Below, piece by piece: positions 51,620 through 58,226 of a stretch of 64,000 bases of DNA. The first letter of the stretch is position 1. Each line of letters starts with the position of its first letter. The DNA is from Haloplanus natans DSM 17983 (lineage in GTDB: Archaea; Halobacteriota; Halobacteria; Halobacteriales; Haloferacaceae). The notes below the pieces were generated by a model that ran no database searches, was not told the origin of the DNA, and was given only the letters and a program-made list of their open reading frames with translations. A program made the position numbers and the translations under genes. Where the stretch lies: positions 434,001 through 498,000 of the forward strand of contig NZ_KE386573.1 in NCBI RefSeq assembly GCF_000427685.1. Reading direction: 5' to 3'.

Positions 51620-52602
51620 AGGGCGATCACTCCCGCCAGCCCGAACGCGAGCCACCCGGCCCGCGAGACGACGGCGACACCCCGCGTCGCGTCGGCGGGC
51701 GTCGGCAGGGCGGGGCCGGCGTCGTCGGACTCCGTCAGACTGTCACCGGCTTCGTCGGTTACCCGAGGCGTCTCCGACGCCTCGCCGTCCGAGGACCGTC
51801 GGTCCTCGCTCAGGTCGTACGCGTCGGGTTTCGTCAGCCGAACGTCCAACGCGACGGCGAGTGTCGCCATCGGCCACCCGGCGTTGGGCGAGGCGGGGCG
51901 GCGGGCGAGCGGCCGCGCGCGCCGGAGCGCACCGGGACGGCCGGCGACGACGGAGAGTAAGACGGCGCTTGCGCGTGCGGGGAGGAACATGACGGCGTCG
52001 TCGAGGCGGGCGGGCGCCCAGCCCATCGGCACCGAGCGGTAGCCGAAGGTCGAATCCAGGGTGTTGACCGCCTTGACCCACGCGGCGGCACCCGCGGCCG
52101 CGGGCAGCGAGAACGGCGCGAGAAGGGCGAAGCCGGCCAGCGGTGCCACGAGGCCGTCGCTCAGGTTCTCGGCGGCGCTCTCGACGGCGGCGCTCCGCAC
52201 CTCGCCGGCGGAGAGGGGCGCCGCGTCGCGCCCGGCCAGCGAGCGCAGGCGCGTCCGCGCCGCCGGGAGGTCCGACTCGCTCGCCGCGACGACGGCGCGC
52301 GCCTCGGCGACGAGCATCCGCCGGCTGGTCGAGACGAAGAGTACGAGGCCGGCGAGGGCGCCGCCGGCGAGCGGGTCGAGTCGGCTCCCGACCGCGACGA
52401 CGCCTGCGACGGCGCCCGCGGCGAGGAGGGGGACGAGCAGCGCCGTCGCGACGCCCGCCAGCCGGGGACGGCGCCACGGCCGGTCGAGCGGCCCGAGCGC
52501 ACGGCCGAGCCACGCGACGGGGTGGTAGCGAGCGGGCGGTTCGGCGACGAGTCGGTCGCCGAGCGCCGCGAGGGCGACGCTTCCCGCCGCGATCAGCGGC
52601 AC
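51613..52602 (-). CDS. cbiB: Adenosylcobinamide-phosphate synthase (CbiB)
   Basis: 329 residues. VALAALGDRLVAEPPARYHP and VAWLGRALGPLDRPWRRP begin, SAAVESAAENLSDGLVAPLA and AAAWVKAVNTLDSTFGYRSV sit in the middle, and RRPASPNAGWPMATLAVAL is near the end. These are CbiB signatures. An acidic Ser/Asp/Glu-rich insertion near residue 255-310 (DLSEDRRSSDGEASE ...) is characteristic of halophiles. Membrane-embedded; attaches aminopropanol phosphate to cobyric acid. Overlaps the HAD gene upstream by 10 bases. Confidence 0.93.
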   Translation of the reverse strand: MPLIAAGSVALAALGDRLVAEPPARYHPVAWLGRALGPLDRPWRRPRLAGVATALLVPLLAAGAVAGVVAVGSRLDPLAGGALAGLVLFVSTSRRMLVAEARAVVAASESDLPAARTRLRSLAGRDAAPLSAGEVRSAAVESAAENLSDGLVAPLAGFALLAPFSLPAAAGAAAWVKAVNTLDSTFGYRSVPMGWAPARLDDAVMFLPARASAVLLSVVAGRPGALRRARPLARRPASPNAGWPMATLAVALDVRLTKPDAYDLSEDRRSSDGEASETPRVTDEAGDSLTESDDAGPALPTPADATRGVAVVSRAGWLAFGLAGVIALC

Positions 52603-54087: not shown

Positions 54088-54179
54088 CCACCACCACTCA
54101 CCGCCGCGTCGGCCGTCCGACAGACAGGCGTCAGACACTCGCGAAGGTTTCAAATAACCGGCCTGCGTGTCTGTGAACG

Positions 54180-54704
54180 ATGAGCAAGATCACGTTCCGC
54201 GCCGACGACGACCTCGTCGAGCGGTTAGAGGCGTTCGACGCCTCGAAAAGCGAGGTGATGCGCGAGGCGTTGCGCACCTACCTCGACGACGCGGAGCGTG
54301 AGGAGTCGCCGGGCGGCGGGTCGGACCGGCTCGAAGCGTTGCTCGCGGAGTACGCGTTTGCACCGCGCGAGCCGCCGGCGATCAACGTCAACGTCACGCT
54401 GGACGGCGATTCGACGGCCCAACCCGACGTGTCCGTCGACCGTGAGACCGACCCGGCGGCGCGTAAGACGGATCGTGAAACGCCGGACGACGCGTCGGAC
54501 TCGCGGAACGCGGCCGGGCAGCGAAACGCGTGTTCCCAGTGTGGCGAGGAGATGTCTGCTGGCCACGTCTACTGCCCGAACTGCGGCGAGAAGTCCGCTC
54601 ACCGGGTGTTTTGCGACTGTGGCGACGAACTCCGATCCGACTGGGCGTTCTGTCCGAGTTGTGGGCGACGGACACCCGCTGCCGACGTGCTCGACCGGCC
54701 GTAA
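54180..54704 (+). CDS. cdrL: CdrL-like ribbon-helix-helix regulator with zinc ribbons
   Basis: 174 residues. The N-terminal 45 form a CopG-type ribbon-helix-helix domain (KITFRADDDLVERLEAFDAS, KSEVMREALRTYLDD); an acidic linker follows, then two zinc-ribbon knuckles: CSQCGEEMSAGHVYCPNCGE and FCDCGDELRSDWAFCPSCGR. In haloarchaea the pair cdrL (long) and cdrS (short, joined to ftsZ2) regulate cell division, and the gene order here is the same. Start at ATG 54180. Confidence 0.85.
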   Translation: MSKITFRADDDLVERLEAFDASKSEVMREALRTYLDDAEREESPGGGSDRLEALLAEYAFAPREPPAINVNVTLDGDSTAQPDVSVDRETDPAARKTDRETPDDASDSRNAAGQRNACSQCGEEMSAGHVYCPNCGEKSAHRVFCDCGDELRSDWAFCPSCGRRTPAADVLDRP

Positions 54705-54722
54705 GCGGTGTAAACGCCGTTT

Positions 54723-54881
54723 GTCTTACAACGGCCGTTAATTTTATAAGGTATTGGTCTCTTGGTACGTTCGCGTAAGACGGTCGTCTTACAGGGCCGC
54801 CGGCCGCGGGGTCGAACCCCCGTCGTCGTCCGGTTGACCCGTGTAAGACAGCACATCGGGGCGTCGCCCCATCCGTCTTAC
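54723..54881 (+). promoter_or_regulatory. cdrS-ftsZ2 leader with five GTAAGAC half-sites
   Basis: Between cdrL and cdrS, GTAAGAC or its complement GTCTTAC occurs at 54723-54729, 54775-54781, 54786-54792, 54843-54849 and 54875-54881. Copies two and three form an inverted repeat (GTAAGAC-ggtc-GTCTTAC). A TATA-like box TTTATAAG lies at 54743-54750, placing the transcription start near 54770-54775, on that repeat. By base composition only a few GTAAGAC sites are expected across the whole window. These are likely operators for CdrL, CdrS or both. Confidence 0.65.
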
Positions 54882-54896
54882 CGGGGGAATGCAACA

Positions 54897-55079
54897 ATGG
54901 AGCGTGTGACACTACGAATTCCGAAGCAGCAGATCGAGGAGGTCGAACAGATGGTCGAGACGGGAGAGTTCCCGAACCGAAGCGAGGCCATCCGCTCGGC
55001 AGTCCGCGAGATGCTCAACGAACAGAGCGAGTCCCGTGACGACAACCGCAAGCGCAACCGCAGCTGGGCGAAGGTGTAA
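54897..55079 (+). CDS. cdrS: CdrS ribbon-helix-helix cell-division regulator
   Basis: 60 residues: [60 protein letters not shown], a CopG-type ribbon-helix-helix unit with a basic tail. It sits 2 bases upstream of ftsZ2, the arrangement of the cdrS-ftsZ2 operon described in Halobacterium and Haloferax, where CdrS controls division timing. The start at 54897 follows a 125-base leader with GTAAGAC sites. A longer frame to 54762 is leader sequence. Confidence 0.92.
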
Positions 55080-55081
55080 CG

Positions 55082-56251
55082 ATGCAGGGATTCGTCCAAG
55101 ACGCCATCGAGCGTGAAGAGGCCGAACAGCGCGACGCCGACGACGACGACTCGTTCGGCGACCCGCGCATCGTCATCGTCGGCGCCGGCGGCGCCGGTAA
55201 CAACACCGTCAACCGCCTGTACAACATTGGCGTCGACGGTGCCGAGACGGTCGCGATCAACACCGACAAACAGCACCTGAAGATGATCGAAGCCGACACG
55301 AAGATCCTCGTCGGCAAGTCGCTCACGCAGGGGCTCGGCGCCGGTGGCGACCCCTCGATGGGCGAGCGTGCGACCGAGATGGCCCAGGGGACGATCAAGG
55401 AAGTCCTCGGCGAGGCCGACCTCGTTTTCGTGACCGCCGGGATGGGCGGCGGTACCGGGACCGGTGCCGCGCCCGTCGTCTCCAAGATCGCCAAAGAGCA
55501 GGGCGCCATCGTCGTCGGCATGGTGTCGACGCCGTTCAACGTCGAGCGCGCCCGTACCGTCAAGGCCGAGGAAGGGCTCGAAAAGCTCCGCGGCGAAGCG
55601 GACTCGATCATCGTCCTCGACAACAACCGCCTGCTCGACTACGTGCCCAACCTGCCGATCGGCAAGGCGTTCTCCGTGATGGACCAGATCATCGCAGAGA
55701 CCGTCAAGGGCATCAGTGAGACCATCACCCAGCCCTCGCTCATCAATCTGGACTACGCGGACATGTCCACGATCATGAACCAGGGCGGCGTCGCGGTGAT
55801 GCTCGTCGGCGAGACTCAGGACAAAAACAAGTCCCAGGAGGTGGTGAGCGACGCGATGAACCACCCGCTCTTGGACGTGGACTACCGTGGGGCCTCCGGC
55901 GGGCTCGTCCACATCACGGGCGGCCCGGACCTCACGCTGAAAGAGGCCGAGGGTATCGCCAACAACATCACCGAACGACTGGAGGCAAGCGCCAACGTCA
56001 TCTGGGGCGCGCGCATCCAGGAGGAGTACAAGGGCAAGGTGCGGGTCATGGCCATCATGACCGGCGTTCAGAGCGCACAGGTCCTCGGCCCGTCGACGCA
56101 GCGGCAAGCCGAAAAATCTCGTCGGAGCCTCAACGGCGAGGACGTTTCGGAATTCGAAGCCACCGACAACGTCGGGCAGGATCAGGCGTCCTGGTCCGAC
56201 GGCGGCCGCGAACAGGTCGAGAAGCGTAACGGCATCGACGTGATTCGGTAG
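55082..56251 (+). CDS. ftsZ2: Cell-division protein FtsZ2
   Basis: 389 residues. [20 protein letters not shown] near 30, [20 protein letters not shown], the tubulin signature [20 protein letters not shown] near 123, [20 protein letters not shown] and the T7-loop [20 protein letters not shown] near 222. GTP-dependent polymer at the division ring. The paralogue is FtsZ2 rather than FtsZ1 by gene order after cdrS and next to ncsA. C-terminal acidic tail ends [10 protein letters not shown], a short conserved peptide. Confidence 0.96.
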
Positions 56252-56296
56252 GCCACGGACGGCTCTCAGAGCACCTATTTTCGGGCCGCGCGTGTC

Positions 56297-57262
56297 TTAC
56301 ACCGCCTCGATAGAGGCGACGAGTCGACACTTCCGGCAGATGCGCCCGCCCGTGCTCGATCCACAGCGGTCGCACTCGCCCAGATCGCTCGATCCATCCT
56401 CGCGGTACCGCTGTGCCGCGAGTTCGGCGAGTTCCTCGTAGCCCGCCATGATCGAGTGCCGGGTTCCCGGGTGGGCCTCCTCCATCCCGAGGAGGAGTTC
56501 CTGTATCTCCCCGCGGTAGGCCTCGCTCGCGTGTGGACACTCCGTGATGTGGGCCGGCAGGTCCGCGAGGTGGGCGTACAGCGCCACCTCCTTCTCCGGC
56601 ACGTCGCGCAGGGGTTTGGCTCGTGGAACGAACTGCGAGCTCTCGGCCCGCCGGTCGAACGGCCCGAGGCTGGCGTCGAAATGCTTGGCGATCTGTTTCA
56701 GGTCGCCCTCGAAGAAGTTCATCAGCGCCGTCTGGGCCTCGTCGTCGAGATTGTGGCCCGTGAGGAGTTTGTCGGCGTCGAGTTCGTCGGCGTAGGATTC
56801 GAGCAGATCACGCCGGAACACGCCGCAGTACGCACAGGCCGCCATGTTTTCGGGATCTTTCTCGACCACGTCGTCCATCCGAACGCCGAGTTCGTCCGCG
56901 TACGACACCACCTCGTGTCGGAGGCCGCGGTCGGCGGTCAGCGCCCGAGAAGCGTCGAGGCTCTCGTCGCGGTAGCCCTCGATTCCCTCGTGGATCGAGA
57001 GGGCAACGAGGTCGACGCGGGGATCACGGCCGAACGTCTCGTCGAGGATGTGGGTGAGGACGACGCTGTCCTTGCCGCCCGAGAGGCCGATCACCCACGT
57101 CTGTGGGTTCTCGGGCGAGGCGTCCGCGGGCAGGAGACCGTCCTCGCGAACCCGGCGACGCACCCGCTTCTCGACCGACGCGCGGACGTGGTCGTCACAG
57201 AGGTGGGCGCCGGAGTAGGCGGCGTGCATCACCGCCTCGCGACCACATTTGTCGCAGTCCAT
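56297..57262 (-). CDS. ncsA: tRNA 2-thiolation enzyme NcsA/TtuA
   Basis: 321 residues. N-terminal zinc finger MDCDKCGREAV, then PP-loop WVIGLSGGKDSVVLTHIL near 60, CAYCGVFRRDLLESYADELD near 142, LTGHNLDDEAQTALMNFFEG and a C-terminal zinc ribbon GECDRCGSSTGGRICRKCRL. Adenylates U34/U54 in tRNA for sulfur insertion; the Cys pair at 142 holds the active-site cluster or disulfide. Converges on ftsZ2. GTCTTAC at 56294-56300 overlaps its stop codon. Confidence 0.94.
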   Translation of the reverse strand: MDCDKCGREAVMHAAYSGAHLCDDHVRASVEKRVRRRVREDGLLPADASPENPQTWVIGLSGGKDSVVLTHILDETFGRDPRVDLVALSIHEGIEGYRDESLDASRALTADRGLRHEVVSYADELGVRMDDVVEKDPENMAACAYCGVFRRDLLESYADELDADKLLTGHNLDDEAQTALMNFFEGDLKQIAKHFDASLGPFDRRAESSQFVPRAKPLRDVPEKEVALYAHLADLPAHITECPHASEAYRGEIQELLLGMEEAHPGTRHSIMAGYEELAELAAQRYREDGSSDLGECDRCGSSTGGRICRKCRLVASIEAV

Positions 57263-58030: not shown

Positions 58031-58226
58031 CTCCTTGGACTTCGTAAGACGCTCCGCCGACGGTCACTGCTGGCGACTCGGCGGCCCGTCGTGACGACCC
58101 GTCGACAGTCGGGTTCGTCGACCCGTGCGGACGAACCGGTGACGCCGGGAACGCACACGAGGCGGTGGCTCGCACGGCCGCGACGCGCCCCGTGATGACG
58201 GTCAGACACGGGTGCTGGCCACGTTC

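Follow-up and report, generated by a model that had tools for sequence, protein, structure and literature searches.

In Halobacterium, ChIP-seq of CdrL gave one reproducible site in the entire genome, and this site lies upstream of cdrS-ftsZ2 (Darnell et al. 2020, PMC7439475). CdrL is reported to be restricted to Halobacteria, its deletion phenotype is not clean, second-site mutations having been reported, and the text of the same paper makes no mention of a motif, palindrome or inverted repeat (PMC7439475). The related regulator CdrS was found at 18 sites in Haloferax volcanii, with a symmetrical motif that is given as a figure only (Liao et al. 2021, PMC8406309). It binds upstream of ftsZ1, dacZ and hisB; the cdrS leader is absent from the sites in Table 1 of that study, and no gene recognisable as cdrL is found in its list (PMC8406309). 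Both CdrL and CdrS are ribbon-helix-helix (RHH) proteins (PF01402). A further RHH protein with which the present locus can be compared is NikR of E. coli, whose operator upstream of nikA, as read from the MG1655 genome, is GTATGAC-N14-GTCATAC.

The DNA analysed here, which we call the window, is a stretch of 64,000 nucleotides from a haloarchaeon near Haloplanus; its FtsZ2 is 96% identical to that of Haloplanus ruber. The genes stand in the order cdrL, cdrS, ftsZ2 and then ncsA on the opposite strand. The product of cdrL (54180-54704, + strand) has an N-terminal RHH domain and a C-terminal double zinc ribbon (PF01402, PF12773), cdrS (54897-55079, +) encodes a 60-residue RHH regulator (PF01402), and ftsZ2 (55082-56251, +), the operon's second gene, encodes the tubulin-like division protein. 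The TATA box of the cdrS-ftsZ2 promoter is at 54743-54749 (+). The initial annotation had placed five copies of GTAAGAC in 160 bp around this promoter, one pair of them as an inverted repeat on the predicted transcription start, and all five are where it put them. One half-site (54723-54729, -, an exact GTAAGAC) precedes the TATA box and is not part of the predicted transcript. Two more, at 54775-54781 (+) and 54786-54792 (-) (sites a and b), form the core palindrome GTAAGAC-GGTC-GTCTTAC (54775-54792). Because the core begins 32 nt downstream of the TATA start at 54743, it covers the predicted transcription start, in agreement with the annotation; for a measured cdrS start, our literature search gave figure-level statements only. 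Site c (54843-54849, +), in the 5' UTR, shows the weakest conservation among the four downstream sites, and site d (54875-54881, -), again an exact GTAAGAC, stands just 5' of the cdrS start codon. Partly palindromic GTAAACG/GTTTAC words also occur in the interval from cdrL to the TATA box, at 54705-54722 in the window and in many other leaders, and are possibly the site of a second regulator.

In all, the window holds nine GTAAGAC; dinucleotide shuffles average 2.65 and never exceed 8. Outside the leader, the copies at 56294-56300 (-) and 58044 (+) are present as annotated, and two others, at 51957 (+) and, inside the cdrL coding sequence, at 54463-54469 (+), had been missed. The chance expectation given in the annotation, 3-4 copies per 64 kb, is if anything too high: the genome-wide count that it proposed as a check returned 75 copies in 3.80 Mb, an average of ~1.3 per 64 kb (119 copies for the reversed control word). 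At this density ~0.003 copies would be expected per 160 bp, which places the leader cluster of five far outside chance, and the shuffles, the genome count and the palindrome census described below rule out base composition as its cause. For the copies at 58044 and 51957 we found no support for a role as functional sites. The copy at 56294-56300, at the ncsA stop codon and the 3' end of ftsZ2, is a possible, if weakly supported, auxiliary site. Haloplanus ruber has a matching copy 33 nt after its ftsZ2 stop codon, and across species GTAAGAC is enriched near this end: in 12 of 77 loci a copy, variably placed, lies no more than about 250 nt from the ftsZ2 stop, and the 1400-1600 bin holds 11 copies where 0.3 would be expected.

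Conservation of the array was assessed in 80 named Halobacteria loci fetched with FtsZ2, 79 of which had a readable cdrS. It is present in all 79 readable leaders, from the Haloferax/Halorubrum, Natrialba/Natrinema and Halorhabdus/Natronomonas types, so that relatives sharing the gene order keep the motifs, as the initial annotation had expected of an operator. In the usual layout the TATA box is preceded by one copy, a convergent pair covers the predicted start, and two single copies follow, the first in the 5' UTR and the second 14-32 nt ahead of the cdrS start codon. In the alignment of the named leaders, the columns of the core half-sites and of the last site are 99-100% conserved, most neighboring columns being far lower; the other conserved parts are the TATA box, with its TTTTAT columns at 98-99%, and a G-rich stretch before the start codon. 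This stretch, GGGGAA at 54884-54889 in the window, is 92-100% conserved and is perhaps a ribosome-binding feature. Over 88 leaders, the core starts 32-33 nt from the TATA start in 80, and its half-site centers are 11 bp apart in 67 and 12 bp apart in 15; site d is exact in every one of these leaders and site c in 65. The copy upstream of the core stands at 52/53 nt (-) in 48 leaders and at 64/65 nt (+) in 21, nine leaders having none, and the outer sites of Halobacteria leaders do not keep a strict 11-bp register.

A wider census, made at the family level too, found GTAAGAC-N4-6-GTCTTAC in 375 of 394 Halobacteria genomes, nearly always once, with the reversed control matching few genomes. Among the 19 genomes without the census palindrome, 12 were examined, together with one comparison genome: nine have a readable locus, with spacers of 2-3 nt or mismatched half-sites, and for three FtsZ2 had no match at the applied cutoff, which may mean that the locus is absent from these assemblies. 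The source genome has two such palindromes, the second of them (GTAAGAC-N4-GTCTTAC, C1:32069) on a 429-kb contig. The region around this one has no cdr gene, and we left it as chance or unrelated.

The array is also present, in variant form, in one of the genomes without the census palindrome, which we take to be that of Halobacterium salinarum from a bacterio-opsin match at 100% identity; one of the core arms there is GTGAGAC. It sits in the same promoter region that CdrL binds in vivo in Halobacterium (PMC7439475), a match at promoter-region resolution, ChIP-seq peaks of hundreds of bases being too broad to single out the word. The one locus per genome that is expected of a CdrL operator is also what the census returned, the source genome with its two palindromes being an exception. 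The array's conservation and position, its confinement to a single place per genome and its agreement with the one published CdrL ChIP-seq site together give good support to reading the leader as a putative operator array through which an RHH protein would regulate cdrS-ftsZ2. We consider it likely that this regulator is CdrL and that the array is its operator, through which it would repress the operon. As far as the published CdrL and CdrS papers show, neither the GTAAGAC word nor the conserved array has been described before.

If CdrL is the reader, we infer that it contacts the GTAAGAC words themselves, each word most likely binding one CdrL RHH dimer whose N-terminal strand, Lys3-Thr5-Arg7, would insert into the major groove. 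Two dimers would then lie 11 bp apart on the core palindrome, over the cdrS-ftsZ2 start, and could stack side by side, while extra dimers would occupy the copy that precedes the TATA box and those in the 5' UTR and the cdrL gene, with looping or spreading as possible consequences. Because the core covers the transcription start region, repression would be the most likely effect, set by the level of CdrL or by the state of its zinc ribbon; given that the cdrL deletion phenotype is not clean, the direction of the effect is read from the position of the sites only.

The copy inside cdrL encodes Arg-Lys-Thr in a variable linker of the protein. Such a copy is found in 56 of 87 cdrL genes, always in one frame and nearly always about -400 to -475 from the cdrS start, and the tripeptide is written CGT-AAG-AC in 54 of 57 cases, with a surrounding linker that varies. 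Across cdrL, CGT makes up ~19% of arginine codons. At control arginines its use is 8-9% at two positions in the RHH domain and 61% at one in the zinc ribbon, which indicates that codon bias varies by position. The fixation of the full 8-base word is the stronger point, compared with the share of CGT, in favor of a constraint that would act on this copy.

The initial annotation had called the leader a CdrL/CdrS operator array. The operator reading has good support and fits CdrL, but the part that concerns CdrS does not agree with the words that CdrS appears to use. We rebuilt the CdrS word from the promoters of its published targets, in close Haloferax relatives. The ftsZ1 promoter carries GTC(A/G)GAC-N4-GTCTGAC and the dacZ promoter GTCAGAC with a weaker partner half-site, and a scan of one Haloferax genome with the pattern gave three places, two of which are ftsZ1 and hisB, both in the published table. 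The CdrS targets carry GTCWGAC, and the leader word has the same length and spacing but A in place of C at base 3. The H. volcanii CdrS motif (PMC8406309) is therefore like the leader core in being symmetrical and in having its 7-mers in pairs at 11 bp in the promoters that were read, and unlike it in the third base; CdrS also has several sites per genome, mostly upstream of the start as for an activator, whereas the leader palindrome occurs almost always once and lies over the predicted start. When the two are compared inside the same genomes, leader words have A as their third base where ftsZ1 words have C; upstream of cdrL, C is again the prevailing base. Across the 200-nt cdrS leaders of 87 Halobacteria we counted 404 GTAAGAC against 30 GTCAGAC, the latter nearly all in Natrialbales, whose leaders carry both words; the leader in the window has none with C. 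On these grounds the array is probably not a CdrS operator.

Words of the CdrS type do occur next to it. Upstream of cdrL the window has the palindrome GACAGAC-AGGC-GTCAGAC (54119-54136), with 13 of 14 matches, and palindromes scoring at least 12 of 14 are found in 40 of 87 cdrL upstream regions compared with 3 of 435 shuffles; the corresponding Haloferax sites are weak, at 11 of 14. As separate observations, two CdrS-type palindromes in the source genome, at C7:239198 and C7:240234, are just upstream of a gene for an actin-like protein (Volactin, PF25216) and of its neighbor, and CdrS may thereby link the tubulin- and actin-like cytoskeletons, the published CdrS table being without such a gene. 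Haloferax and the source genome share a pair of hypothetical genes that flank a further CdrS-type palindrome, which looks, by its sequence, like a conserved CdrS target.

We think it unlikely that CdrS binds its own leader through the variant word and that the array is its autoregulatory operator. GTAAGAC-N4-GTCTTAC does equal the CdrS palindrome in length, in spacing and in all but one base per half-site, and the CdrS word itself stands at the promoter in the cdrS leaders of non-Halobacteria. The published H. volcanii sites, however, leave out the cdrS leader, though other Haloferax species have the GTAAGAC array there, and the change at base 3 separates leader words from ftsZ1 words inside single genomes. 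More favorable to CdrS are two haloarchaea that lack cdrL next to cdrS, L064 (a MAG) and L081 (HArc-gm2). CdrL was not detected in either assembly, a repeat profile search giving partial hits only, one of which is an RHH match to a short protein unlike CdrL; exact GTAAGAC half-sites are kept in both, two in L064 and three in L081, which has the whole core palindrome. Sites without a detectable CdrL may mean that the word has another reader, or that CdrL was lost recently or missed in draft assemblies.

The two regulators also differ at one of the residues presumed to contact DNA. At strand residues 3/5/7 all 87 CdrL carry Lys-Thr-Arg and all 87 CdrS carry Arg-Thr-Arg. In an alignment these residues fall on the N-terminal strand of E. 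coli NikR and, by analogy with other RHH proteins, they presumably contact bases. A comparable statement on base contacts has been made for residues 5 and 7 of MazE6 (PMC9477884). The Lys3/Arg3 difference is a correlation between two paralogs. The NikR half-site differs from GTAAGAC at the central base only, an example of a word of this kind in use by an RHH protein; its half-sites are separated by N14, as against N4 here, and NikR is nickel-gated through a nickel domain, in place of which CdrL has zinc ribbons.

The NikR half-site also bears on the proposal that the word is read by a CdrL-CdrS heterodimer, each 7-mer offering a CdrS-like GTC arm and a GTA arm for CdrL, which we regard as highly unlikely. 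Both proteins are of the RHH type and are encoded side by side, and GTA-A-GAC is asymmetric and has a fixed orientation in the core, with the GTA arm outside, where CdrS sites are symmetric (GTC-W-GAC). The same asymmetry is nevertheless present in GTATGAC, and NikR is a homo-oligomer, so an asymmetric half-site does not require a heterodimer. Moreover, the CdrS ChIP does not show the leader (PMC8406309).

The least probable reading takes the copies for a 5' UTR RNA element whose paired stems act on translation or processing. In its favor, hairpins are possible for both downstream pairs, the predicted folding of the leader is somewhat better than that of shuffles (z -2.36), and post-transcriptional control of ftsZ2 is reported in Halobacterium (PMC8303175). 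We rejected it because covariation is absent in 88 leaders, where 36 stem pairs are broken and 0 compensated, site c varying against an invariant site d, and because no Rfam match was found. The reported processing site is inside ftsZ2 and not in the leader (PMC8303175), and DNA binding explains more than RNA stems do, given that one conserved copy precedes the TATA box and another is inside cdrL.

With CdrL as the likely present reader of the array in Halobacteria, the leaders of other archaea suggest how the operator may have arisen. The 200-nt cdrS leaders of 13 non-Halobacteria contain no GTAAGAC and 24 GTCAGAC (shuffles giving about 0.3-2.4, for these counts and those from Halobacteria), and no full-length CdrL relative was found in the non-Halobacteria genomes searched. 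Of 25 distances between their words, 23 are 11, 22, 33, 55 or 66 bp, and such multiples of 11 would fit, as expected, proteins stacked on one face of the DNA. Since the CdrS word is found on the same operon outside Halobacteria, the operator probably served first for self-control by CdrS, and it would then have been handed to the related CdrL through a C-to-A change. We put forward, tentatively and at somewhat less than even likelihood, that this hand-over took place in the ancestor of Halobacteria, self-control by CdrS through GTCAGAC passing to its paralog CdrL by one base per word, matched by an Arg-to-Lys difference at residue 3, and that CdrS itself began to regulate cdrL in many species, which would close a loop of two regulators around cell division.

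An operator that is named at the level of bases and is nearly universal in Halobacteria makes control of the amount of the archaeal division tubulin directly testable. Together with Lys3 and Arg3, the two words GTAAGAC and GTCAGAC would make a compact natural case of two related regulators diverging, and this pairing predicts that specificity could be swapped by one residue. The site inside cdrL, if it is what it appears to be, would be an operator that fixes part of a protein's sequence.
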